From: Chlorobiaceae bacterium
GTDB taxonomy: Bacteria > Bacteroidota > Chlorobiia > Chlorobiales > Chlorobiaceae
Length of the DNA stretch: 64,000 bases
Direction of reading: 5' to 3'
Assembly (NCBI GenBank): GCA_013334525.1
Contig: JAAXXK010000007.1
Location: forward strand, 1-64,000
Shown here in pieces: positions 1-10,896 of this stretch (within the stretch, counting starts at the first letter, position 1; each line of letters starts with the position of its first letter). The notes beneath the pieces were generated by a model. The model made no database searches and was not told where the DNA came from. It saw only the letters and a list, made by a program, of their open reading frames with translations. The position numbers and the translations under genes are program-made.

Positions 1-2128
1 GGTCGATCACCACCTGCGCGCCGTTGACGAAATCGCCGAACTGCGCCTCCCAGATGACGAGCGTGTTGGGCTCGGCGATCGAGTAGCCGTATTCGAAGCC
101 GAGCACGGCCTCCTCGGAGAGCACCGAATCGATAACCGTGAAGGGCGCCTGGTTGTCGGCGACGTTCTGCAGCGGAATGTATGCGCCCATGTCCCAGCGC
201 TCGCGCTTCTGGTCGTGCAGCACCGCCTGGCGATGCGAGAAGGTGCCGCGACCAGAATCCTGGCCGGTAATGCGCACCGCATAACCACCCGAAACGAGCG
301 AAGCGAAGGCGAGGTGCTCGCCCATGCCCCAGTCCAGCGGCAGTTGCCCGTCACCCATCGAAGCGCGGTCGCGAATAACCTTTTCGACCAGCGGATGCAG
401 CTTCATGTTGAGCGGAATCGAGGTGATGCGCTCAGAGAGGCGTTTCAGCTCCGCGCCTGGCACGCCGGTTTCGGCCTGGTCGGTCCAGATACGGTTACGG
501 AATGGAAGCCAGTCGACGGCATACTTGTTCTTCGCGTTCGACAGCACCGGGTCGACCGTGTGGCGGCCGGCATCCATCGCCTTGCGGTACTCCTTGCCGA
601 GCCCGTCCGCATAATCCTGTCCCGTGACCCCCTGCGCCTTCAGGCGATCGGCGTAAAGGGAGCGCGTGCCCGGATGCTGCGCGATCTTCTTGTACATCAG
701 CGGCTGGGTGATGGACGGCGTGTCCTGCTCGTTGTGGCCGTGCTTGCGGAAACAGACGATATCGATGGCCACGTCGTGGCGGAAGGTCTGGCGGTATTCG
801 AGCGCGAGGCGCGTGGCCAGGATGACCGCTTCCGGATCGTCGCCGTTGACGTGCAGCACCGGTGACTTGATGATCTTGACGATGTCGGTGCAATATATCG
901 ACGAACGCGCGTCACGCGGATCGGAGGTGGTGAAGCCGATCTGGTTGTTGATGACGATGTGCACCGTGCCGCCCGTGCCGTAACCGCGGGTCTGCGAAAG
1001 GTTCAGCGTCTCCATCACCACGCCCTGGCCTGCGAATGCCGCGTCGCCGTGCACGAGGATCGGCAGCACCTGGTGGCCGTCGACATCGCCCCGGTTCTCC
1101 TGGCGGGCCTTGACCGAACCCTCCACAACGGGATCGACGATCTCGAGGTGCGATGGGTTGAAGGCGAGCGAAAGGTTGACCGGCCCATTGGGGGTCGAGA
1201 CGTCGCTCGAAAAGCCGAGGTGGTACTTCACGTCGCCGGATGGCAATTCGTCGCCATGCTTGCCCTCGAACTCGGCGAACAGGTCAGCCGGGCTCTTGCC
1301 GAGAATGTTGACCAGCACGTTCAACCGGCCGCGATGGGCCATGCCGATAACCACCTCTTCGACCCCGTAAGACCTGGCCGACTGAACCAGCTCGTCGAGC
1401 GAGGCGATGAAGCTCTCCCCGCCCTCAAGCGAAAAGCGCTTCTGCCCGACATAGCGGGTGTGCAGGAAGCGTTCAAACCCTTCGGCGGCCGTCAGGCGTT
1501 CGAGTATATGCTTCTTCTCGTCATCCGAAAAAACGGGCTTCGAGCGGATAGATTCAAGCTTCTGCTGCCACCAGCGCTTGCGGTTGCCGTCGGTGATGTA
1601 CATGTACTCGATGCCGATGGTGCCGCAATAGGTCTCGCGGAGGTTCTGCAACAGTTCACGCAGGCTCATCGACTCTTTGCCGAAGCCGGTGTCGCTGGTA
1701 TTGAACACGCTGTCCATGTCGGCATCGGTCAACCCGTAGAACGATGGCTCCAGATCGGGAAGCTGCGGGCGCTGCTGGCGCTTGAGGGGATCGAGGTCGG
1801 CCCAGTGGGTACCGAGCGAACGGTAAGAGGCGATCAGTTTCTGGACGGCCACACGCTTGCGGCCAAGGTCGGTGTCAGCACCGTAGGCGATAATCTGCCG
1901 GATCGGACCGTTTTTCGCTCTTTCGGCGAACGATGCCACCACAGGGGCATGGGCCACGTCGCGCGACTCGCTACCGTCGACCGCAGGCACGTTCTGCATG
2001 GCGTCGAACCAGCTTCGCCAATTGTCTGGAATGGATGACGGGTCGTTAAGGTAGGATTCGTAGAGTTCTTCGATGTAGGGAGCGTTACCGCCGTAGAGAT
2101 ACGAATTGCGTTGGAACTGCGACATCAT
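1..2128 (-). CDS. sucA: 2-oxoglutarate dehydrogenase E1 component (partial, C-terminus beyond window)
   Basis: This reading frame stays open from 2128 to the window edge, about 709 codons, where the full family is about 950. I translated it from the minus strand: it opens MMSQFQRNSYLYGGNAPY, the small N-terminal motif of proteobacterial-style SucA, and later shows the thiamine diphosphate enzyme core with MAHRGRLNVL, FNPSHLEIVDPV, GDAAFAGQGVV and FRKHGHNEQDTPS. The enzyme decarboxylates 2-oxoglutarate and passes the succinyl group to lipoyl E2 in the oxidative TCA cycle. Two adjacent ATG codons (2128, 2125) compete as start; I chose the first because the family often begins with two methionines. 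E2 and E3 genes would lie off the left edge. Green sulfur bacteria usually rely on 2-oxoglutarate:ferredoxin oxidoreductase, so this gene is unexpected; its closest resemblance, from memory, is to betaproteobacterial SucA. Confidence 0.93.
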   Translation of the reverse strand, partial: MMSQFQRNSYLYGGNAPYIEELYESYLNDPSSIPDNWRSWFDAMQNVPAVDGSESRDVAHAPVVASFAERAKNGPIRQIIAYGADTDLGRKRVAVQKLIASYRSLGTHWADLDPLKRQQRPQLPDLEPSFYGLTDADMDSVFNTSDTGFGKESMSLRELLQNLRETYCGTIGIEYMYITDGNRKRWWQQKLESIRSKPVFSDDEKKHILERLTAAEGFERFLHTRYVGQKRFSLEGGESFIASLDELVQSARSYGVEEVVIGMAHRGRLNVLVNILGKSPADLFAEFEGKHGDELPSGDVKYHLGFSSDVSTPNGPVNLSLAFNPSHLEIVDPVVEGSVKARQENRGDVDGHQVLPILVHGDAAFAGQGVVMETLNLSQTRGYGTGGTVHIVINNQIGFTTSDPRDARSSIYCTDIVKIIKSPVLHVNGDDPEAVILATRLALEYRQTFRHDVAIDIVCFRKHGHNEQDTPSITQPLMYKKIAQHPGTRSLYADRLKAQGVTGQDYADGLGKEYRKAMDAGRHTVDPVLSNAKNKYAVDWLPFRNRIWTDQAETGVPGAELKRLSERITSIPLNMKLHPLVEKVIRDRASMGDGQLPLDWGMGEHLAFASLVSGGYAVRITGQDSGRGTFSHRQAVLHDQKRERWDMGAYIPLQNVADNQAPFTVIDSVLSEEAVLGFEYGYSIAEPNTLVIWEAQFGDFVNGAQVVID

Positions 2129-2302
2129 GGATGTTGTCACTTGAAAAGTCCTGGAATATTTCAAATGCCCGATCACGAACCGGAGATACCGGCCATGCTT
2201 TTTGAAGTATTAATGTAACAATCGCCGACACAATATTTAAACACCAATCGTATATGTTTATAGAGGTGGATGGGCGGGAGCTTTTGCTGGCGGGCTTCAG
2301 GG

Positions 2303-2713
2303 CTATCCTTCAGATGCGGATATTTTCAAGCGGTACTCGGCAAGAATGGGAAGGTCGGCCTCAGGAAAATCGTAGGAAGATGCCTCGTCGATACCGATCC
2401 ACCGCAGCTCCTCATGGTCGTTGGCAACCGGCTCCCCCTCAACGATCCGGCACCGGAACGCAATAAGCCGAAGCGACCGCTCAGGGTAGCTGTACTCAAC
2501 CGGAGTCAACCGCTCAATCACCTCAACCCGAACCCGCAACTCCTCAAACAACTCCCGATGAAGCCCCTCAACCTCCGACTCCCCCACCTCAACCTTCCCC
2601 CCCGGAAACTCCCACTTAAGCGCCAAATGCCGCCCCTCAGTCCGCCGAGCAATCAGGAACTTCCCCTCCCGCTCAATAATGGCACATACCACGTCGCCGA
2701 TATGGATTGTCAT
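2303..2713 (-). CDS. MutT-like NUDIX hydrolase
   Basis: A 136-residue single-domain NUDIX protein. The NUDIX box is clear at about residues 38-60: GGKVEVGESEVEGLHRELFE followed by EL, matching Gx5Ex7REUxEExGU, where the glutamates bind the catalytic metal. N-terminal strand WEFPGGK and length fit the MutT/8-oxo-dGTP diphosphatase branch, which removes oxidised nucleotides from the pool; substrate cannot be proved from sequence. The gene lies 175 bp upstream of the 2-oxoglutarate dehydrogenase gene on the same strand and 112 bp from the insertion sequence at its other side. Codon use resembles the core genes, so it probably marks the core side of the accessory region. Confidence 0.85.
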   Translation of the reverse strand: MTIHIGDVVCAIIEREGKFLIARRTEGRHLALKWEFPGGKVEVGESEVEGLHRELFEELRVRVEVIERLTPVEYSYPERSLRLIAFRCRIVEGEPVANDHEELRWIGIDEASSYDFPEADLPILAEYRLKISASEG

Positions 2714-2824
2714 GGATGAGAAGGGATTGAGGGTTCAGATTTGCTCGGAATACATGAATAAGATAAGGCTACCGCTAAAGAAAATGACAGTCGTTTAGAT
2801 GACTGTGGCTATCCCCCTAATCGG

Positions 2825-3683
2825 TCAACCCAAAAGTAGAGTTTCCGGCATATTTTGTTTTAATGCAAGAAATTCAAGAGGGGTTAGGCCACTCAAGGAA
2901 TAGTGCGGTCTGAACCCGTTATATTCATTTCGCCAGTCCTCTATTTTCTGGCGGACATCGTCTAGGCTGGCAAACCAATTCACTGAAAGACTTTCATCTC
3001 TGAACTTCCCGTTGAATGATTCAATATATGGATTATCGGTCGGCTTGCCCGGACGGGAGAAATCCAGCACGACCTTGTTTTCATAAGCCCAGCGATCCAG
3101 TTCTTTAGAGATGAACTCGCTGCCATTATCGACCTGAATTCGTTCAGGAACTGCGCGTTCCCGCTGCACAGTCATTTCAAGGAATGCTACTACATCGGCG
3201 CCTTTTAATATGTTGATCAGCGAAGAGCCCTGGACATTTCTTTGCGAAGTTGTCGACAATCGTGAGTATCCTGAACTTCCTGCCATCAAAGAGTTGATCG
3301 GCAACAAAGTCCATGCTCCACACCTGCTGTGCCCGACACAGATCAACGCGCTCAATTCTATGCTGTGCGCTCCGATTTCTGCGAGGTCGTTTGGTTCGTA
3401 AGTTTAACCCTAGTTCGCAATACACTCGGTGTACCCGCTTATGGTTATCGGTAAATCCTTCACGTTTCAGCATGATCTCAATACGCCGGTATCCATAACG
3501 GATTCGAGAATAAGCGATTTCACGCATTCGCATAGCCAACAGCGTTTGATCTCGCCGGTGCGGTTTGTAATAAAGAGCTGAACGATGCATCGGCAACGTC
3601 TTGCAAGCTCGCCTTCTTGACACCTGATATGCGATTATCATGTATTTGACCAAATCTTTCTTGATCGAGGCGTTTACAGCTTT
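2825..3683 (-). pseudogene. IS3-family transposase OrfB (rve integrase core, frameshifted)
   Basis: Together two frames give a full OrfB. The first part (ATG at 3653, or by -1 frameshift from orfA) carries the HTH_21 region and RIRYGYRRIEIMLKREGF, then the start of the rve domain (VWSMDFVADQLFDGRKFRIL). The second part continues ILKGADVVAFLEM and includes IQVDNGSEFISKELDRW and the C-terminal catalytic region NPYIESFNGKFRDE, so the DDE residues are spread over both parts. The switch falls near 3207-3212: four A residues stand where three would restore frame, so one inserted base breaks the gene. It could be repaired only by another frameshift, so I call it a pseudogene. Confidence 0.85.
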
Positions 3684-3940
3684 TTTTTTACAATATCCTG
3701 TAGCATCTGCCTATCAAGACTTAAATCGGCAACAAGTTTCTTCAACTGCGCATTTTCTTCTTCCAACTGGCGGAGCCTGCGAAGTTCAGTGACTCCCATT
3801 CCGCCGAATTTGTTCTTCCAGTTGAAAAAGGTGGCTTGGGAGATACCCATCTGACGGCATATCTCCTGAACCTTGGTGCCGGCCTCTGCCTGTTTAAGGG
3901 CGTAGGCGATCTGCTCTTCGCTGAATCGGGACTTTTTCAT
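3674..3940 (-). CDS. IS3-family transposase OrfA (HTH protein)
   Basis: An 88-residue protein opening MKKSRFSEEQIAYALKQAEA, the standard start of IS3-family OrfA. It has a helix-turn-helix (EICRQMGISQATFFNWKNKF, residues about 26-45) followed by a leucine-zipper-like helix (LRQLEEENAQLKKLVADLSL). It ends at a run of nine A residues (minus strand, plus-strand T run 3681-3689); shifting by -1 on that run reads straight into the orfB frame without a stop, as expected for the programmed frameshift that makes the OrfAB transposase in this family. Confidence 0.92.
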   Translation of the reverse strand: MKKSRFSEEQIAYALKQAEAGTKVQEICRQMGISQATFFNWKNKFGGMGVTELRRLRQLEEENAQLKKLVADLSLDRQMLQDIVKKKL

Positions 3941-4040
3941 GGCAATGATTCCTCGGTTTGTTCAAGATACTCATTGCCGGAAAACTCAACTTTAGATCGT
4001 TCCGGTTTTCGGGGAGGGGGTCATTTGCGTTATATCATCA

Positions 4041-4517
4041 TTACTCAGTGGTCAAACCCTGCTCTTCAGACGATTGTTTATCATTTGCAGGAACAAATCC
4101 TTTGGGATTAACGATCGGTAAAGGCATTTTCTCCAGGAACGATCCGGCCCCTTTGGCCAAAATAGCACCTCGGGTAGTTGAAATAGCCAGAGAAACCAAG
4201 GTCGTCAATAGTGATTCAGGGTACTTAACGCCCCCATTATCATGCACTTTATCGGAAGGAATTCCATCCAACCCAAAAACAGAAGCGGCCTCTACATTGG
4301 CAACAATCTCCTCGGTGCTGGTAGTAATAACAACATTAACTTTAACAACAATATTTGACTGACCCTCGCGCACAGGTCCTGAATCATTAATATCGACAGT
4401 CAGTTGAACACTTAGAGCATCTTTACCAATATCATCCGTCTCAACAAAACTAAAACGGAGGAACTTAAATCCCTCATACCTTATACCAACAGTAACTGTA
4501 TCTGCCTTTTCCATCAT
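4041..4517 (-). CDS. SecB-like chaperone of a toxin-antitoxin-chaperone module
   Basis: A 158-residue protein with the SecB fold signature: alternating beta strands in the first 100 residues (VQLTVDINDSG, NIVVKVNVVITTS), then the C-terminal SecB helix and loop as TLVSLAISTTRGAILAKGAG and a final LPIVNPKGF, comparable to the TRGxFPPxxLxPxNF end of export SecB. It is the last gene of a three-gene operon and its ATG overlaps the stop of the HTH gene by 4 bp. In TAC modules, such as Rv1955-Rv1957 of Mycobacterium tuberculosis, this chaperone binds and stabilises the antitoxin rather than serving general export. DNA here is AT-richer than the core genes, suggesting acquisition. The operon layout supports the TAC role more strongly than the sequence alone. 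Confidence 0.8.
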   Translation of the reverse strand: MMEKADTVTVGIRYEGFKFLRFSFVETDDIGKDALSVQLTVDINDSGPVREGQSNIVVKVNVVITTSTEEIVANVEAASVFGLDGIPSDKVHDNGGVKYPESLLTTLVSLAISTTRGAILAKGAGSFLEKMPLPIVNPKGFVPANDKQSSEEQGLTTE

Positions 4518-4849
4518 GCTGCCTCGCCGGTAAAATTATACGGGAACGGTTCGCCAAACATGATAACAGAACTGGATTTTGCCTTTTGCTTCTGCAAGTT
4601 AAAACTGATAACATCTGCCCCTAATGCTACCTCGATCTCAGAAACTGTCTTAAGGGTAGGGTTGGCATCCCCAGACAATACCCTACTGATGTATGACTCC
4701 TTTTTCCCTAGTTTCTCCGCAAGTTCCCGTTGAGTCATGCCAATATGCTTCAGCTTTTCCGCTACTGTGGCAGCAAATCCAAGCTGTCTATTGACATACT
4801 TCTTAGTAACAGGCGGTATACCATCTAAAAGATTCTGAAATAATGACAT
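4514..4849 (-). CDS. HTH (XRE/HigA-like) antitoxin with a C-terminal tail
   Basis: 111 residues. The HTH_3 domain spans about residues 32-82 (MTQRELAEKLGKKESYISRV then LSGDANPTLKTVSEIEVALG). After the domain there is a roughly 25-residue tail ending VIMFGEPFPYNFTGEAA, rich in aromatic and hydrophobic residues. In TAC antitoxins such a tail is the chaperone-addiction (ChAD) segment that binds the SecB-like partner; here that role is inferred. The gene starts 9 bp after the upstream toxin candidate and overlaps the SecB-like gene by 4 bp (ATGA), so the three are translationally coupled. The HTH protein likely also represses the operon promoter upstream of 5344. Confidence 0.8.
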   Translation of the reverse strand: MSLFQNLLDGIPPVTKKYVNRQLGFAATVAEKLKHIGMTQRELAEKLGKKESYISRVLSGDANPTLKTVSEIEVALGADVISFNLQKQKAKSSSVIMFGEPFPYNFTGEAA

Positions 4850-4858
4850 AGCTATAAG

Positions 4859-5344
4859 TTATTTTTGATCCTTAAAAAAATTCATAGATCCTCGGAGAAC
4901 CCCAGTATTATGGTCAACATGAATGCGCCCTGAATAAATCCTTTTCATCAAGAGATCATGTACCCTCTGCAAATCCTCAACTGATGCATTTAAATGAGGA
5001 GCCTCTTGATATGTTCTGGTGGTCTTAACCCCGCCATTGCCAACGACAAGCAAAGTATTATCGATGCGTAGACAATATAGCCTTAATTTACCATCACTTA
5101 ACGCAGACACATAATCCCGTTTACGTCCTTCTGACTCCTTAAAGTAGTGTGCGGCGAAGCCATACTCAGTTGACATCTCAATCAACTTGGATTTAATCCT
5201 GTTAAGCGACGCCTCTTGATTATTCACATCATCAGCCATTAGGAACTTATCAAACTCCGTTTGAGATTCCTCTTCGAGCTGAATGGTGTAGATAGAACCT
5301 GCAACTCCAAGGTTTACGGGCACAATTTTAAAGCCTTGCTTCAC
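4859..5344 (-). CDS. Putative toxin of the toxin-antitoxin-chaperone module
   Basis: 161 residues, first gene of the three-gene operon. I do not recognise a named family with certainty. The C-terminal half (KLRLYCLRIDNTLLVVGNGG then VKTTRTYQEAP and a final helix QRVHDLLMKRI) has the strand order of RelE/HigB-type ribosome-dependent RNases, where a basic strand is followed by the phrase VxxxGFxKKT; the N-terminal half (EFDKFLMADD, NRIKSKLIEM) would be helical. Position directly upstream of an XRE antitoxin gene is the usual HigB order. Function as a toxin is therefore inferred mainly from context. Upstream DNA (5345-5450) is AT-rich and would contain the promoter. Confidence 0.6.
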   Translation of the reverse strand: MKQGFKIVPVNLGVAGSIYTIQLEEESQTEFDKFLMADDVNNQEASLNRIKSKLIEMSTEYGFAAHYFKESEGRKRDYVSALSDGKLRLYCLRIDNTLLVVGNGGVKTTRTYQEAPHLNASVEDLQRVHDLLMKRIYSGRIHVDHNTGVLRGSMNFFKDQK

Positions 5345-5454
5345 TTATAAGTTAAGTTTTTTGACTTGTAATACCAGCAAAATCCTATTCAATTAAACAA
5401 AAGGAACACCCCGTTACCTTCTATAAGTACAAGAAGCTTCTTTCAATCTGATCG

Positions 5455-5674
5455 CTAACCCTTCAAGCTATCCAGATAATCCGCCCAAGCCTGCTTCATC
5501 CGTAGACGCTCGTCAAGATGCGTTGATCAATTGTATGCCACGCCCACTCTGTCGGGAACACGATGCCCGAGTTGCGCCTCGATTGCATCTGAAGAGAATC
5601 CGAGTGTCTCGTGCTGCATGGCATGAGACGTTGCCCTAAACCCACGCGGAAACCTGGAAATGACTTGAGGGAGA
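5455..5674 (-). pseudogene. Tyrosine recombinase (P4-type integrase) C-terminal remnant
   Basis: Read on the minus strand, this short piece gives RGFRATSHAMQHETLGFSSD, then AIEAQLGHRVPD, then AYN, a TGA stop at 5527-5529, and in the same frame STHLDERLRMKQAWADYLDS before a TAG at 5455-5457. This is the C-terminal end of phage P4-type integrases, including the HxxR-like GFRAT box, the second conserved His in QLGH and, two residues past an AYN motif, the tail ending WADYLD. The TGA sits where homologues carry Arg (CGA to TGA). Everything N-terminal is missing: the piece begins right at the 3' end of the group II intron. It is a dead relic of the integrase that probably served this island. Confidence 0.8.
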
Positions 5675-6320
5675 GTAGACCGGGGGAATTTCACCCCCAG
5701 CCCCTCGCAGAGCCGGACGTGAACGTATCCATTCATCCGGCTCCCATTATCCTGCCATTTCTGGCTTTGTCAGACCAATCGGCTCCTCCTGTTTGCACAG
5801 TTGACCGTCTCAGCTGACTGGATAACGCAATCCCTTCGCTCCAGTCTCATTACAAGACCTTCATCACTACTACGGATTGCTCCGCCCCTTTCTGGTGCAT
5901 CAGTACTTTTGGCCTCGTTTTTCACACTTGTGCCGTTTCCCTTTTCATCACCAGCGAAGGTTCCCGCAGTTCAACGCAAGAGCCAGAACCAGGATCAAGC
6001 CACCTCTACGCCGGACACCATCTGACCTGTAAACAGGTTTCCGTCAGACTCATCCTGGAGTTACGTCCAGCTCCAGTTTTGATGTCATCTTGTCACTAAC
6101 GACGTTTGTACGGTGGTTCACTTGTATTCGTCTTCCTTGGTTCACACCTGACATCTTCACGATGCCTTTTCCGTAACGCTCACGACCATGGCTTTTGACC
6201 ACAGCCGCTTACGGTGGTTTGCTACCTGCTCCTGCAAGCCGATAGCGAGGGGCCGACCCTCATCTCTCACGCCGCTTATCTGCGGCACACGGACGTTGCT
6301 CAATAAGCGAAATAGCGCAC
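5675..6320 (-). mobile_element. ORF-less group II intron (ribozyme)
   Basis: About 646 nt on the minus strand. The 5' end reads GTGCGCTATTTCGC, matching the GUGYG consensus. Domain V is a textbook 34-nt hairpin at 5710-5743 (minus strand GAGCCGGATG...CACGTCCGGCTC with a short loop), followed by a domain VI-like GC hairpin (GGGGGTGAAATTCCCCC) and a 3' end at GGTCTAC. The middle includes the common bacterial domain I segment with TGGAGCGAAGGG. There is no reverse transcriptase/maturase frame anywhere inside, so splicing or movement would need a maturase in trans. The 3' flank is the integrase remnant; the 5' flank (6321-6380) is not recognisable as integrase, so the intron has not simply interrupted that gene, or the 5' exon was lost. 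Exact ends are accurate to a few bases. Confidence 0.8.
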
Positions 6321-6383
6321 CATTCCCACATCAGATTTTCATGCACGCACCCCTGTCTTCCATCCCATTATCCCTTTCAAAAC

Positions 6384-7016
6384 TTACCGAGTCCGGTATT
6401 GCAGTACACGGATCGCGTTCCGCTTGACTTGCATGTTTTCTTTGAGCCAGGCTAAAAAGCCGGGGTCTTGAAGGAGCTTCCTTATTTCCGGATCAGTCAA
6501 TTCAACGGGACGGTGGTATCCCAGTTCCCAGCCGACCATGTATCCTGCTGCCGTAGAACCGGCCACCACGATCGTTCCTACTATCTTTTGTATCGACGGT
6601 TTGCTGATCGCCTCTTTGGCGGATATCGCAACCGTAGTGCCCACAACCCCAAGCATCATCTTGCTCACCTCACCATCTTTGATTCCCGGTGCCCTTAACA
6701 GCGGATCGGCAGCAACTCTCGTAAATGCTTCCTGGCTGAACTGACCATGTGCATCCGTGACTGCCCATTCCCAATAGGGGTTGCGGGCAGGGAACAGAAA
6801 ATATGTGGTCCCGGCTTGAGACTCGACCCTGAGATTCTTTCTTACGATATCTTTAAGATGCTCATTCGAGAGCCGCTCCTGTGTACCGTTGATATAGCCA
6901 ACCACAAGAAGCCCTGCAAAAAGCCCTATCGCAAGCAATAAATAGAACTTGAAACCCTGAGCGGCACTTTCGGTCGCCTCGACCCCGGATGGCTGGCTTG
7001 AGATCTTTTTGGCCAT
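6384..7016 (-). CDS. Hypothetical membrane-anchored protein
   Basis: About 210 residues from the ATG at 7016, preferred over an ATG at 7103 because GAGG lies about 8 bp upstream and the extra N-terminal stretch looks like non-coding sequence. One clear membrane segment follows a short polar head: FYLLLAIGLFAGLLVVGYIN (about residues 23-42). A second weaker hydrophobic stretch rich in Gly/Ala (IVGTIVVAGSTAAGYMVG) lies near residues 138-155. I do not recognise the family. It stands alone in the island between the group II intron and a 500-bp gap. No function is proposed. Confidence 0.6.
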   Translation of the reverse strand: MAKKISSQPSGVEATESAAQGFKFYLLLAIGLFAGLLVVGYINGTQERLSNEHLKDIVRKNLRVESQAGTTYFLFPARNPYWEWAVTDAHGQFSQEAFTRVAADPLLRAPGIKDGEVSKMMLGVVGTTVAISAKEAISKPSIQKIVGTIVVAGSTAAGYMVGWELGYHRPVELTDPEIRKLLQDPGFLAWLKENMQVKRNAIRVLQYRTR

Positions 7017-7103
7017 AATTACAACCTCGGAAATGATGTCTATCAGTAGAGAACAAGGAGATGATTGAGCAGGAGCGATAGCACTTGAGATGATCCTGAA
7101 CAC

Positions 7104-7613
7104 ATAAACTTACCCAACCACAGAATCTTTTACAATTTTGATCTCCGCTGAAGCCGATATTCCGGGCTGAAAAGAACTTGAGAAGGGAAACGCTGGGCGT
7201 TGTTAAAAAGCAAAACTACGGGATGTTGTTCAAAACGTGAAATAGCGTACAGATTTGCCGTTTTCTGAAAAGCAGAACACCCCACCGCTTACTGCATTTT
7301 CTCAATAATTCATCCTGCGACTTTTGAGGCGCCGCTTGGTGGGCAATCCTGTGGCGACAATTCAAATACGTTGCTGGATTCAGGCAAAGCACCTGTTGCA
7401 TGGACACTCATGGCTACTTGATCGTAATCCAAATGTGACAGCTGCATGTATGGCTGGTTTTTGGTTAACGATTTGATAAATATTGCGTTATTGGACGGTC
7501 ATATAATATCTTGAAGTATTTATATTGAACACGATTACGTTTGTGGAATTATTGGCAGGCCGTTCTACGACGGGTGCGACTCCTGTACATCCAAACATCA
7601 AATAGATTGAAAT
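7104..7613. other. Gene-poor AT-rich gap
   Basis: About 510 bp between two divergent hypothetical genes (6384-7016 minus and SPFH plus). The right part (7430-7560) is AT-rich and probably carries the promoter of the SPFH gene. Only a 63-codon minus-strand frame without a usable ribosome site is present (7216-7407), which I do not believe. I see no known RNA or repeat here; it may be the decayed remains of an older mobile gene. Confidence 0.4.
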
Positions 7614-8612
7614 ATGAACCTCTTTTTAGTGCTTTTGCTCATTCTCTTTATTCTCGCTCTGGTTGTCGCGGCGCAGGTGGGTCTGGCCCGCTACCATGCG
7701 ATACGTGACCAGCAGAACAACGTTGTGATGTTTGGCGGTGCGGTGAGGCTTCTTTCGTGGGAGCAGAATGAAGGGCTTGTCCTCCTCAGATACAAAAAGG
7801 TTTCCGAGATCATTGTCGGCGCAGGTGGCGGCATGCGGTTCATCTATCCTATCAAGGGAGAGGAGCTTCGGGCACGAATCCCCCTTACCTTGCGCCTGGT
7901 CACCTGGAACGATACGGATATCCTGACTCGTGAATCCATTCAGGTAATGCTCAAGGTGGCCGTCTGGTGGCGGGTGGCTGATCTCAACAAGTACGTCTTC
8001 ACCATCGACACACGCGTCAATGTTGACAACAGCCGGCTTGAAATGGGTCCACTGGGTGCCGCAGAGGAGTGGCTGCAAACACTGACAGAAAGCAGCATTC
8101 GTACTCTCGTATCGCAGGTCAGTGTTGCACTTCTGGTCTCCTCCAAGCCGACGAGCTATCTGCATGTCGATCCCCACAATCCCGCAGAACACTCAACGGC
8201 CCAGGGGGCGTCGCAGGTGCTGGCGCACGACCTTCAGATCGATCTACACAACAAGGCCCAGGATTATGGCATTGAGGTGCAACGAGTCGAAATCCAGGAA
8301 ATAGGTCTCTCCGATGAGATCCAAACCGCCATTGATCGTGTCTGGAAAGCCTCGCTGCTTCCGGCGCAAACGGAGCAGGAGGCCAAAGCGCGTCAGATCG
8401 AACTTCAGGCCGTCGCAAACGTGCTGGGTGTAGATACCGTGGCGCTCAACGAGGTCATGAAAAACTTCCAGGGCTCCTCGTTCCTTGGTGTCCCTGCGTT
8501 TCTCGAAACGCTGTTGGGGCGGGTAGGCGACAAAACCACACAGGCGAGTTCCCTCATCCCCAAGGGCAACAACCAGTCGCCCTCTCTTCCCGGGAGCCAT
8601 GAGCAGATTTGA
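7614..8612 (+). CDS. SPFH/Band 7 domain protein (stomatin-like)
   Basis: 332 residues. It starts with a membrane anchor (LFLVLLLILFILALVVAAQV, residues 3-22) and then the Band 7 fold: IVGAGGGMRFIYPI near residue 67, beta strands LRLVTWNDTDILTRESIQVM and VAVWWRVADLNKYVF, and the helical tail with YGIEVQRVEIQEIGL, LPAQTEQEAKARQIELQAVA. SPFH proteins form membrane-bound oligomeric cages or microdomain scaffolds and often work with FtsH-type proteases or NfeD partners; no such partner is next door here. It ends in a short polar, Ser/Pro-rich tail. A rho-independent terminator follows at 8627. It sits in the accessory region, so it may be island cargo. Confidence 0.85.
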   Translation: MNLFLVLLLILFILALVVAAQVGLARYHAIRDQQNNVVMFGGAVRLLSWEQNEGLVLLRYKKVSEIIVGAGGGMRFIYPIKGEELRARIPLTLRLVTWNDTDILTRESIQVMLKVAVWWRVADLNKYVFTIDTRVNVDNSRLEMGPLGAAEEWLQTLTESSIRTLVSQVSVALLVSSKPTSYLHVDPHNPAEHSTAQGASQVLAHDLQIDLHNKAQDYGIEVQRVEIQEIGLSDEIQTAIDRVWKASLLPAQTEQEAKARQIELQAVANVLGVDTVALNEVMKNFQGSSFLGVPAFLETLLGRVGDKTTQASSLIPKGNNQSPSLPGSHEQI

Positions 8613-8626
8613 AAAAATGTCATAAA

Positions 8627-8662
8627 AAAAGCCCTGGGGAGTAAGACCAGGGCTTTGATTTT
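8627..8662 (+). terminator. Rho-independent terminator after the SPFH gene
   Basis: Perfect stem AAAGCCCTGG / CCAGGGCTTT with a 9-nt loop, preceded by A-run and followed by TGATTTTGAT. It lies 15 bp downstream of the SPFH stop codon and could act in both directions. Confidence 0.8.
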
Positions 8663-8790
8663 GATGGCACCGACATAGTTCCTCCAACCAATGTCAATGC
8701 AATCTCACACAGGAATAATAACCAAATCGGCAACACCCCTCAAGCAGTTCCGAACAGTTCACAAACCCGCAACATTCAGCACCCTCGGGC

Positions 8791-9306
8791 TCATGCTGAT
8801 TGTGCGTAGCGCCTGATTATACGGTGCAGCTCTTTAGGATAAGCGTGGGCATTCTGCAGGTGCCCTTTCCGTGAATATGCTTCAGGAGCACGCCTGGAGA
8901 GCGTATGGATGATGCCGAGATGCTCCGGATCATCGGTGTCGTGAGGGTCGATATTGCCTCCCTCCACGATGCTGTAGAAGTTCTCGACCTTGTTTTTGAT
9001 CTCTTCGTCAGTAAGCCCCGTCTCATCCTGCATCGCCTTCTCCCTGGTGATACCGTCGGCGATCCAGTACGACAGGCTCTCTTTTGCTTCAGTTTCCGTC
9101 AGTGGACCGTCAAAGCAACCACTGTCAGCGTCTGCAATCCAGTACCTCTTGACAACCCCGCCGCTCGGGCCTGCAACGTGAGCCCAGCTTCCACCATCCA
9201 GCTTCAAATGCTGTCCAGCCATCTCTTCCGTCTCGTTCTGCGCTTTCTCCATAGATTTCATACCTGCAACTTCCTTTTCTACCATAACTATCATCTCCTC
9301 TGTCAT
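8791..9306 (-). CDS. Hypothetical acidic protein
   Basis: 171 residues, strongly acidic, no membrane segment. Recognisable features are short: KRYWIADADSGCFDGPLTET and an EAKESLSYWIADGITREKAM segment, so the word YWIAD occurs twice, about 30 residues apart, and a basic C-terminus KELHRIIRRYAQSA. I do not know the family. The start could also be the ATG at 9285, which has GAGGAG 9 bp upstream and may be the better choice. It is convergent with the SPFH gene and lies just inside the first copy of the 60-bp repeat at 9513. Confidence 0.55.
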   Translation of the reverse strand: MTEEMIVMVEKEVAGMKSMEKAQNETEEMAGQHLKLDGGSWAHVAGPSGGVVKRYWIADADSGCFDGPLTETEAKESLSYWIADGITREKAMQDETGLTDEEIKNKVENFYSIVEGGNIDPHDTDDPEHLGIIHTLSRRAPEAYSRKGHLQNAHAYPKELHRIIRRYAQSA

Positions 9307-9750
9307 ATTATCATTCTCTCAATCCTGAAAAATCAGGCATCATCGTCAATTCAGCATTACGCATTTTACCATCACTCTTTAGACGCTGTTTTCTACAAAT
9401 CTTTGCGCTTAAATCTGATAAAAAAACGAAAAGTAACAAGAGTCCCCGAATGAAGAACAAGCACGACTCAAAGTCCGGTTGCCTTGCAGAGGGCGGTCCA
9501 GTTAAAAATGGGCAATAAAAAAGGCAGACGCTGATACTAAACGCCTGCCTGAAGTGGAGATGGCGGGACTCGCTATAACGAGGTAACTGTATCCATAAAC
9601 TTATCTGACCAAAGTGCTTTTACTATTTTCTGCCTGTCGATGCCGATGTTTCCGGTAAACTTGAACAATTAGAGGCTCCCCTGTTCTTGTCTTCTGGCCA
9701 CGTTTGGGATATGGATTATCATGACGGAAGTGAATCGGCGAGGAAAAGAG
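9307..9750. other. Non-coding interval carrying the first 60-bp repeat copy
   Basis: No credible gene. It contains the outer copy of the tmRNA-3'-end direct repeat (9513-9572), whose left flank (9307-9512) differs from the flank of the other copy. The rest (9573-9750) is ordinary-looking spacer before the stop codon of the DUF2283 gene. Confidence 0.6.
9513..9572. repeat. 60-bp direct repeat, distal copy (attachment-site-like)
   Basis: Identical over 60 bp to 10349-10408. It holds the tmRNA transcription terminator hairpin (AGGCAGACGC...GCCTGCCT) and the last 18 nt of the tmRNA gene (up to GGCGGGACTCG on the plus strand). After 9572 it diverges, so it is a fragment of the tmRNA 3' end and not a second tmRNA. 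This is what site-specific integration into ssrA leaves behind. Confidence 0.9.
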
Positions 9751-9957
9751 TCAAGCCGTTTTTCGTGCGATCTCCTGATAGGAAAATTCCCAAAGACCCG
9801 CATTCTCTTTGGCATGCTCAATCGTCATGCTGACAAGATTGCCCTTATCGTCAACGTCAATCAGGATATTCTCACTGACTTCACGCGTTTCGACAACCGG
9901 CCGGTCCACCATCTGGATAAAAGCAGTGTCGGTATCTTCAAAATATTTGATTTTCAT
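9751..9957 (-). CDS. DUF2283 family protein
   Basis: 68 residues opening MKIKYFEDTDTAFIQMVDRP with ETREVSENILIDVDDKGNLV, the typical beta-rich DUF2283 pattern in which a short protein has a Y/D-rich first strand and an I-D-x-D-x-x-G turn. Biochemical role is unknown; family members are often encoded beside a small partner of about 80-90 residues, as here (3 bp apart). The pair looks like a toxin-antitoxin-type module, but this has not, to my knowledge, been demonstrated for the family. It lies inside the 60-bp direct repeats and is therefore probable integrated cargo. Confidence 0.8.
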   Translation of the reverse strand: MKIKYFEDTDTAFIQMVDRPVVETREVSENILIDVDDKGNLVSMTIEHAKENAGLWEFSYQEIARKTA

Positions 9958-9960
9958 CTG

Positions 9961-10197
9961 TTATTCCCTCCTGAATGATCTATCGAAAAATGCGTTATGA
10001 ACCGTTTCGCCATCTTCCAACAGAATAACCCTCAGATATTTATCCACCTCTGCAATCCTTGCCCAACACCGGATTCGTCCGTCTGACTGAAGATTCGTTT
10101 TCTCTGGGTTCTTGATAACAAATGAAATCCACTCATCTTTTATCAAGGCTCTGTCTGGGCGTGTTCGTGTAAAGTCGAAGTACTGGGTTGTCTTCAT
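9961..10197 (-). CDS. Small protein paired with DUF2283 (putative toxin-like partner)
   Basis: 78 residues from the ATG at 10197 (the frame opens upstream to 10242, but related proteins begin MKTTQYF). Visible pattern: RPDRALIKDEWISFVIKNPE, then IRCWARIAEVDKYLRVILLE and VHNAFFDRSFRRE. The charged N-terminal helix, W-ARI strand and HNAFFDR ending recall small basic HigB/DUF4258-like proteins, but I am not sure of the family. It is the first gene of the pair, 3 bp upstream of DUF2283. Toxin activity is an inference from size, pairing and island location. Confidence 0.65.
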   Translation of the reverse strand: MKTTQYFDFTRTRPDRALIKDEWISFVIKNPEKTNLQSDGRIRCWARIAEVDKYLRVILLEDGETVHNAFFDRSFRRE

Positions 10198-10348
10198 GTC
10201 ATCCATCGATACAGAATTTCCTAGCAGGAAATTTGACCTCACTATCTGGTTAAAATTAATAAAAACAAAATCTTACACCAAACAGCAAAACATGAACTCA
10301 TAATACCCCATCAGCCGCCTTAATCATCACACCAGCATAAATGTTCAA

Positions 10349-10408
10349 CAATAAAAAAGGCAGACGCTGATACTAAACGCCTGCCTGAAGTGGAGATGGC
10401 GGGACTCG
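10349..10408. repeat. 60-bp direct repeat, tmRNA-proximal copy
   Basis: Covers the last 18 nt of the tmRNA gene plus its terminator and is identical to 9513-9572. The two copies are 836 bp apart start to start and bracket the DUF2283 pair, as attL and attR bracket an integrated element. Confidence 0.9.
10352..10386 (-). terminator. tmRNA terminator
   Basis: Minus-strand stem AGGCAGGCG / CGTCTGCCT with a TTTAGTATCAG-type loop followed by TTTTTTATTG, 4 nt after the tmRNA 3' end. A second copy exists in the repeat at 9516-9550. Confidence 0.85.
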
Positions 10409-10788
10409 AACCCGCGTCCAGAACACTGATCGATGCAGTCACCACACTCATCTCTGGTGATTGTTTTTTCGTAGACTGTTACATCGCCAACAACGTACAG
10501 TCTCTTATCCCTGGAGTGTATTCATGCGGCCCCCAAGGCCTGATCGCATGAAGCTTACTTGCGCGAACCGAAGCTCAAGCGCGGGTTATGCCATCCAGCG
10601 CCTTCAGAGTAAGCGCATTCACCGCTGGACGATGGCGGCTAATTAACTTGTGCTAATCAGGCAGCCATTGCATACGAATAATCGTCTGCATCTGTTTGTT
10701 ACATAGACTTCTTTAACGAGTCCATCCATGCTGAAACTCGGAGTGCAACTACATCTCACACCTATCCTGTCGAAAGCCTGTCATCCCC
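10391..10788 (-). ncRNA. ssrA: Transfer-messenger RNA (tmRNA)
   Basis: About 398 nt. The 5' end GGGGATG pairs with 3' CATCTCC to make the tRNA-like acceptor stem, and the 3' part has the T-arm GGACGCGGGTTCGAGTCCCGCC; CCA is not encoded. The resume codon GCA begins the tag at 10689 and the reading frame GCA GAC GAT TAT TCG TAT GCA ATG GCT GCC ends at TGA (10657-10659), giving ADDYSYAMAA. This rescues stalled ribosomes and marks the product for proteolysis. The tag equals the one known from Chlorobaculum tepidum, supporting the organism call. Its 3' end has served as an integration target (see the 60-bp repeats). Confidence 0.97.
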
Positions 10789-10896
10789 GCAAATTCAAAG
10801 AACCGTGCCCATGCACGAAGTGACTATAGATAACCTTTAACTGCCACATTATCAAGAACAACCGAACACCTGCAATTGGTTCCGCAACCTTTCCCG

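Follow-up and report, generated by a model that had tools for sequence, protein, structure and literature searches.

In toxin-antitoxin-chaperone (TAC) modules, a toxin-antitoxin pair is joined by a SecB-like chaperone, and the pairs described in this setting are HigBA, HicAB and MqsRA (PMC5105189). A preliminary description of the DNA studied here had TAC modules as known from Mycobacterium; they are known there, but this is too narrow, as E. coli HigBAC and CmdTAC also belong to the group (PMC5105189, PMC11980606, PMC11618068). The HigBAC trigger is the lambda major tail protein (PMC11980606), that of CmdTAC is the T4 capsid protein, and CmdT is the toxin of the latter module (PMC11618068). 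Here we analyze a three-gene locus on the minus strand of contig JAAXXK010000007.1 from a Chlorobiaceae bacterium (assembly GCA_013334525.1), a green sulfur bacterium; "the window" is the whole stretch analyzed, 64,000 nucleotides from position 1 of the contig. We consider it very likely that this locus (4041-5344) is a TAC module, probably an anti-phage one, with a new toxin sequence family. Modules of this kind are already known, and the toxin's sequence family is unnamed in the general protein databases searched.

The locus beside described chaperone-dependent modules

The locus holds three intact open reading frames (ORFs) of 161, 111 and 158 residues. The first (4859-5344, GTG start) encodes a toxin-like protein recognized through its AlphaFold2 model, Foldseek and PADLOC; after a gap of 9 bp (4850-4858) comes an XRE antitoxin gene (4514-4849) whose product has a helix-turn-helix (HTH) core (Pfam HTH_3, 6.4e-13), and this overlaps by 4 bp (4514-4517) the gene for the SecB-like chaperone (4041-4517). 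The tight packing, with the same gap and overlap, had been reported correctly before, as had the antitoxin C terminus, which reads VIMFGEPFPYNFTGEAA. PADLOC models of one candidate defense system, PDC-M64, match all three genes (3e-34 for the toxin, 3.9e-19 for the antitoxin and 1.1e-8 for the chaperone, model PDC-M64C). PDC names in PADLOC presumably stand for phage defense candidates; the PADLOC library attaches no mechanism to PDC-M64, and our literature searches returned nothing under that name and nothing joining a SecB-like chaperone, an antitoxin and Chlorobium.

The M. tuberculosis TAC (HigB1-HigA1-Rv1957) shares the toxin, antitoxin, SecB-like gene order, the chaperone fold, with its structure 5mtw among the top structure matches, and an antitoxin tail with aromatic residues. 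It differs in that its toxin is found by the Gp49/HigB profile, whereas the window toxin is not Gp49 by sequence, and the two tails show no similarity visible by eye. A Geobacter lovleyi HigBA-SecB TAC (Bordes 2016, PMC5105189) has a putative addiction region that spans 30 residues (86-115), as does the antitoxin here (82-111), and is set apart by its description as a HigBA pair. E. coli HigBAC likewise has three components with a SecB-like chaperone, and its HigB toxin is paralleled here by a HigB-like fold, but the toxins differ in family by sequence. CmdTAC resembles the locus in its SecB-like third component, but CmdT is an ADP-ribosyltransferase (PMC11618068), whereas the toxin here is HigB/RelE-like in fold. 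We considered a CmdT-type ADP-ribosyltransferase as the first gene and set this aside, having found HigB/RelE-like fold matches and no Pfam match.

The predicted structure of the third gene product is a SecB fold. Its AlphaFold2 model (predicted local distance difference test score, pLDDT, 79.6; predicted template modeling score, pTM, 0.73) combines four strands with a long helix, and each of the 19 PDB structures that Foldseek matches at E<=0.001 is either SecB or the SecB-like Rv1957, with probability 1.00 and moderate template modeling (TM) scores by query length (0.38-0.50). They include SecB of E. coli and H. influenzae, SecB with the SecA C-terminus, and Rv1957 with the HigA1 addiction peptide (5mtw). 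The preliminary description had predicted a SecB fold for 4041-4517 and had named a failed fold match as its refutation; run here, this test matched both SecB and the TAC chaperone Rv1957. The search with SecB family models that it had also proposed gave a mixed answer: the window protein scores 13.9 bits against a Pfam cut-off of 26 (and 12.9 against 102.8 in NCBIfam), but two relatives, G127 and G133, have versions of this gene that exceed the Pfam cut-off with 37.5 and 27.9 bits. At E<=1, Pfam SecB matches three of the 24 members of our family alignment (the window's own at 0.053, the best at 1.6e-9), and a PDB search with the 24-row profile itself recovers E. coli SecB (E 0.0011). Within PADLOC, 22 of the 24 relatives match PDLC04763 and 2 of the 24 match PD-T4-9_C; we take PD-T4-9 to be CmdTAC. 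Given its architecture together with this chaperone fold, we class the module as a TAC.

The SecB-like protein might instead be a passenger beside an ordinary two-gene toxin-antitoxin pair, such as an export chaperone replacing a missing housekeeping SecB, which strikes us as quite improbable. Pfam SecB at E<=0.01 was found in none of 41 genomes (host and relatives), a search that covers Pfam-detectable SecB alone and misses the module's own chaperones, and the export role could therefore be vacant; two-gene forms of the family, moreover, account for 31 of 70 loci. The sporadic spread of the toxin, which is matched at E<=0.01 in 36 of 150 genomes, the host's included, nevertheless ill suits an export housekeeper. 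As a separate observation, Pfam-detectable SecB is scarce throughout the host's phylum: beyond its absence from these 41 genomes, proteins above the SecB cut-off occur in only 3 of 118 phylum genomes, and in two of the three (G127 and G133) the protein is the third gene of this module.

Antitoxin tails and chaperone genes across the family

Relatives were collected from the 150 genomes, from viral contigs, and from a pattern scan of an 84,980-species collection, in which 125 stretches matched and 52 loci were confirmed, all of them, as we read their titles, from green sulfur bacteria or from Bacteroidota broadly defined. The viral contigs yielded one toxin locus, in the two-gene form, and none of 36 pattern matches to the SecB-like profile in them was a relative. 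From 84 loci we dropped 6 whose toxin was identical to another's and 8 in which the toxin was a fragment or the antitoxin gene was absent or truncated. Among the 70 kept, the toxin, XRE and SecB-like genes are consecutive on one strand in 39, the remaining 31 being two-gene forms, and from these gene orders we conclude that the three-gene arrangement is not due to chance. Across the 39 three-gene loci, the distance matrices computed for the toxin, the XRE core and the SecB-like protein are correlated with one another at r 0.79-0.87 (0 of 2000 permutations as high), as would also be expected from common descent alone, without exchange of parts.

The last 30 residues of the window antitoxin (82-111, running from SFNLQ to YNFTGEAA; 4517-4606, minus strand) form a candidate chaperone-addiction domain. 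With the tail defined as the residues beyond the HTH core, its limit set by an antitoxin family hidden Markov model (HMM), tails of at least 28 residues occur in all 39 loci that have a SecB-like gene and in 4 of the 31 that lack one (70 loci with distinct toxins). Lengths run from 29 to 106 residues in the former; in the latter they are 2-26 in 27 loci and 47-115 in four. Tails accompanied by a chaperone carry 2-13 aromatic residues and the others 0-4, while tail lengths also differ. Of the 39 antitoxins with a SecB-like partner, 17 have A, G or V at each of the last two positions, as do 2 of the 31 without one. The window antitoxin ends in EAA, a possible C-terminal protease signal, and the host's transfer-messenger RNA (tmRNA) tag ends in AMAA; a role of these C-terminal antitoxin residues as a protease signal is suggestive only.

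The toxin tree, which has long branches (locus L029 among them), requires eight changes of chaperone state, six of which are forced by well-supported branches. Six independent pairs drawn across such branches give three to four in favor of the tail-chaperone link, none against, and two to three undecided (p 0.125). The earlier proposal that the tail is a chaperone-addiction domain thus agrees with the co-occurrence of tail and chaperone, but falls short of significance by independent pairs. The clade of the window shows the pattern at close range. The window and L005 have a long tail and a chaperone, while L003, L004 and L016 have no chaperone and antitoxins that stop near the point where the motif EPF opens the remaining tail; toxins of the two- and three-gene forms in this clade are about 60% identical. 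Downstream of the two-gene copy in L003 we also observe a second, partial XRE antitoxin (L003:2553-2837) with a core close to that of the first, as if the module had been partially duplicated.

The four long-tailed antitoxins without a SecB-like gene differ among themselves. L008 and L009 have a tail in common that follows those of their chaperone-bearing neighbors for roughly its first twelve residues and then diverges; in L009, an antisense ORF overlaps much of what remains. L079 has a 310-residue ORF downstream that is unmatched by the SecB-like HMM. In L076 (4562-6182), the long-tailed antitoxin is followed by the gene for a 369-residue AAA+ ATPase, which, judging by its position, might stand in for the chaperone. 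A tblastn search at E<=0.1 for SecB remnants in 40 loci without a SecB-like gene gave one weak match, at L079 (E 0.039).

Neither the window toxin nor a two-gene relative matched phage records, and the window toxin matched 2 of 72,556 plasmid records at E<=0.01, over 90% (H1) and 30% of its length. A three-gene relative outside the 70-locus set lies on a phage-like circular record of 61.9 kb from Bacteroides thetaiotaomicron (L112:3950-5292; NZ_CP103284.1 59688-61030). This record carries capsid (from base 571), tail, holin and integrase genes, and the module lies 0.8 kb before its end, with a third gene that matches the SecB-like profile at 1.9e-10. We offer tentatively, and with the balance somewhat tilted against it, a wider reading: that a toxin family with a RelE/HigB fold and conserved residues of its own has spread through Bacteroidota, green sulfur bacteria and a phage-like plasmid, switching at least six times between two- and three-gene forms with gain or loss of the tail. 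As each such switch would accompany tail gain or loss, chaperone addiction would then be a trait that evolution can add and remove, and the SecB-like protein a replaceable phage sensor. Close two- and three-gene versions of one family constitute a natural experiment on how an antitoxin acquires chaperone dependence, a step examined earlier by transferring tails to other antitoxins (Bordes 2016, PMC5105189).

Fold, sequence family and possible target of the toxin

The toxin model is of high confidence (pLDDT 91.1, pTM 0.87). Its top Foldseek matches are to S. pneumoniae HigB (6af3/6af4; E 0.02-0.09, probability 0.93-0.99, TM 0.39-0.43 by query length), followed by M. tuberculosis RelE2, T. thermophilus RelE and E. 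coli YafQ (TM 0.27-0.32), and HigB, RelE, YafQ and YoeB entries make up most of the top 16 PDB structure matches, all at E >= 0.02. The chain 6af3_A is named a HigB toxin, and the same Gp49 profile detects HigB1, the toxin of the M. tuberculosis TAC. Sequence searches gave no Pfam family at E<=10, and E-values of 0.1 or worse throughout NCBIfam, PHROGs and PDB sequences (0.12 or worse in the PDB); a 35-row toxin profile matched nothing in the PDB, and the model found nothing at E<=0.001 in a viral structure library (best 5.7e-3, unnamed). We rejected an assignment to Gp49/HigB (PF05973) by sequence, as the toxin lies below that family's threshold, and 35 toxin relatives match 21 families at E<=1, none of which is PF05973.

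The HigB/RelE structure matches, together with an insignificant profile comparison with Gp49, therefore lead us to describe the toxin as having a predicted HigB/RelE-like fold, weakly supported in E-value, within a sequence family of its own. The preliminary description had called the first gene RelE/HigB-like, unrecognized, and possibly a new toxin family. The likeness holds by fold, with the same weakness in E-value, and fails by sequence; "unrecognized" is accurate for Pfam, NCBIfam, PHROGs and the PDB, where significant matches are absent, but not for PADLOC, given its PDC-M64 match; and the suggestion of novelty stands, the family having no name in the general protein databases searched. 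This makes the family a candidate anti-phage effector with no significant Pfam or NCBIfam match.

By its modeled fold, the toxin likely cleaves mRNA. The catalytic residues of HigB-TAC are E66, R68, R77 and K95 (PMC9098466), and the charged residues invariant in the 35 toxin relatives are E72, D77, R88 and K107; R93 and R110 are almost invariant. In our reading of an alignment that is itself insignificant, R88 falls on an invariant arginine of the Gp49 set, the presumed counterpart of R77, and K107 lies one column off the counterpart of K95. Another possibility, which we regard as rather unlikely, is that the locus is a TAC module with a toxin that is not an mRNase, these six residues on a RelE/ParE-kind fold serving another target such as gyrase or tRNA. 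The conserved set is indeed unlike that of HigB-TAC, and RelE/ParE toxins vary in target (PMC11980606), but the top fold matches are of the HigB/RelE/YafQ type, described as mRNases, and the placement of R88 and K107 also speaks for an mRNase.

Proposed mechanism, defense context and surroundings

Gene order, SecB fold and tail-chaperone co-occurrence together back the earlier reading of the locus as a TAC operon, and by analogy the module should work like HigBAC and CmdTAC. The toxin, going by its fold, would block translation, most likely as an mRNA endonuclease, while the XRE antitoxin would neutralize it and probably repress the operon. The antitoxin's tail would confer instability and be recognized by the dedicated SecB-like protein, which would hold the antitoxin until it meets the toxin, as the co-occurrence of tail and chaperone and the M. 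tuberculosis TAC, HigBAC and CmdTAC suggest. The chaperone could then be captured by a rival substrate, most likely a newly synthesized structural protein of a phage, leaving the antitoxin to be degraded, perhaps by ClpXP via its Ala-Ala end, and the toxin to be freed. The three-gene switch is most likely an anti-virus growth-arrest device.

A module that stabilizes its mobile stretch, or that responds to stress, instead of defending against phages would also be a TAC, and we think such a role improbable, though worth weighing. The stretch around the window copy varies in length and contains an insertion sequence (IS) and an integrase remnant; a Pfam scan of six window proteins near the operon recognized no defense gene; and several relatives look decayed, L016 being frameshifted and L030, L061, L069, L070 and L083 having short toxin ORFs. 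HigBAC and CmdTAC, on the other hand, function in phage defense (PMC11618068, PMC11980606), PADLOC lists the genes as PDC-M64, and defense neighborhoods occur at L057, L074, L075 and L078. The module adjoins a PglX/type IIG protein in L057 and a type IIG protein in L074; in L075, a type III methyltransferase and restriction enzyme lie upstream and an Argonaute downstream, with a 327-residue protein unmatched, and L078 has the same layout as judged from family counts and ORF positions. Applied to 111 proteins flanking 18 chaperone-bearing loci, PADLOC found two members each of type III methyltransferase, type III restriction enzyme and Argonaute (among the matches listed, 25 of 151 families), and 5 of 10 flank proteins scanned singly (6 loci) match PADLOC; these counts stand without a random-flank baseline and carry no claim of enrichment. 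In both L075 (Cytophagales bacterium) and L078 (Jiulongibacter sediminis), the module and four flank genes stand in a row on one strand (about 648-9439).

Besides this lack of a baseline and the result of the Pfam scan near the operon, several points weigh against an anti-phage TAC module of the kind we favor. Flank proteins of L045, L047 and L067 scanned singly matched no defense model. The Fisher's p of 1.7e-15 for tails of at least 28 residues keeps related, partly near-identical rows and uses a cut chosen after the lengths had been viewed; the tail-chaperone link is phylogenetically clumped, and the independent pairs are too few for significance. The window's 30-residue tail is the second shortest of the 39 that accompany a chaperone, and its EAA end differs from the ClpXP signal LAA in which CmdA and other known TAC antitoxins end (PMC11618068). 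For the toxin, Foldseek E-values are never better than 0.02, and a profile comparison (hhalign) with 12 Gp49/HigB toxins of related genomes gave a probability of 1.6% and P 0.032; in the same alignment the toxin has no clear charged counterpart of E66 or R68 of HigB-TAC, so that RNase activity stays putative.

In composition, the genes stand out as AT-rich, as had been reported, with G+C of 0.412 (toxin), 0.435 (antitoxin) and 0.426 (SecB-like) compared with 0.536 in the window as a whole and 0.614 over positions 1-2176. Scans for operon promoters and terminators gave signals no higher than chance. On the 3' side lies the neighboring IS that had been noted before, an IS3-family-like element with broken ORFs (2825-3940, minus strand) recognized by library matches; the NCBIfam IS3 model matches it below its cut-off, and a search for terminal inverted repeats found one weak pair, away from the element's ends. 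On the 5' side, the previously reported integrase relic (5527-5736, minus strand) finds partial backing as a C-terminal remnant of a site-specific integrase. A Pfam scan of it gave no match, but its C-terminal part aligns in seven of the eight plasmid records matched at E<=0.01 (7e-5 to 5e-3), the proteins concerned being annotated as integrase in six cases and DUF4102 in one.

The operon and ssrA (tmRNA; 10390-10788, minus strand) both lie in a stretch of variable length (2714-10896), ssrA being close to its far flanking gene. The two flanking genes are separated by 8183 bp in the window. Ten genomes of the same genus have this pair on a single contig; in eight of them the separation is 1354-5629 bp, and in G003 and G019 it is about 18 and 41 kb. 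We looked for a TAC-containing island bounded by ssrA repeats and found none, the sole repeat pair bracketing a smaller cassette. The two copies (9513-9572 and 10349-10408) form a perfect direct repeat of 60 bp that takes in the 3' end of ssrA, and between them lie a DUF2283 gene (9751-9957) and a 93-residue ORF (9961-10242). By its layout, the cassette (9513-10408) looks like a minimal two-gene element, perhaps of toxin-antitoxin type, integrated at ssrA.
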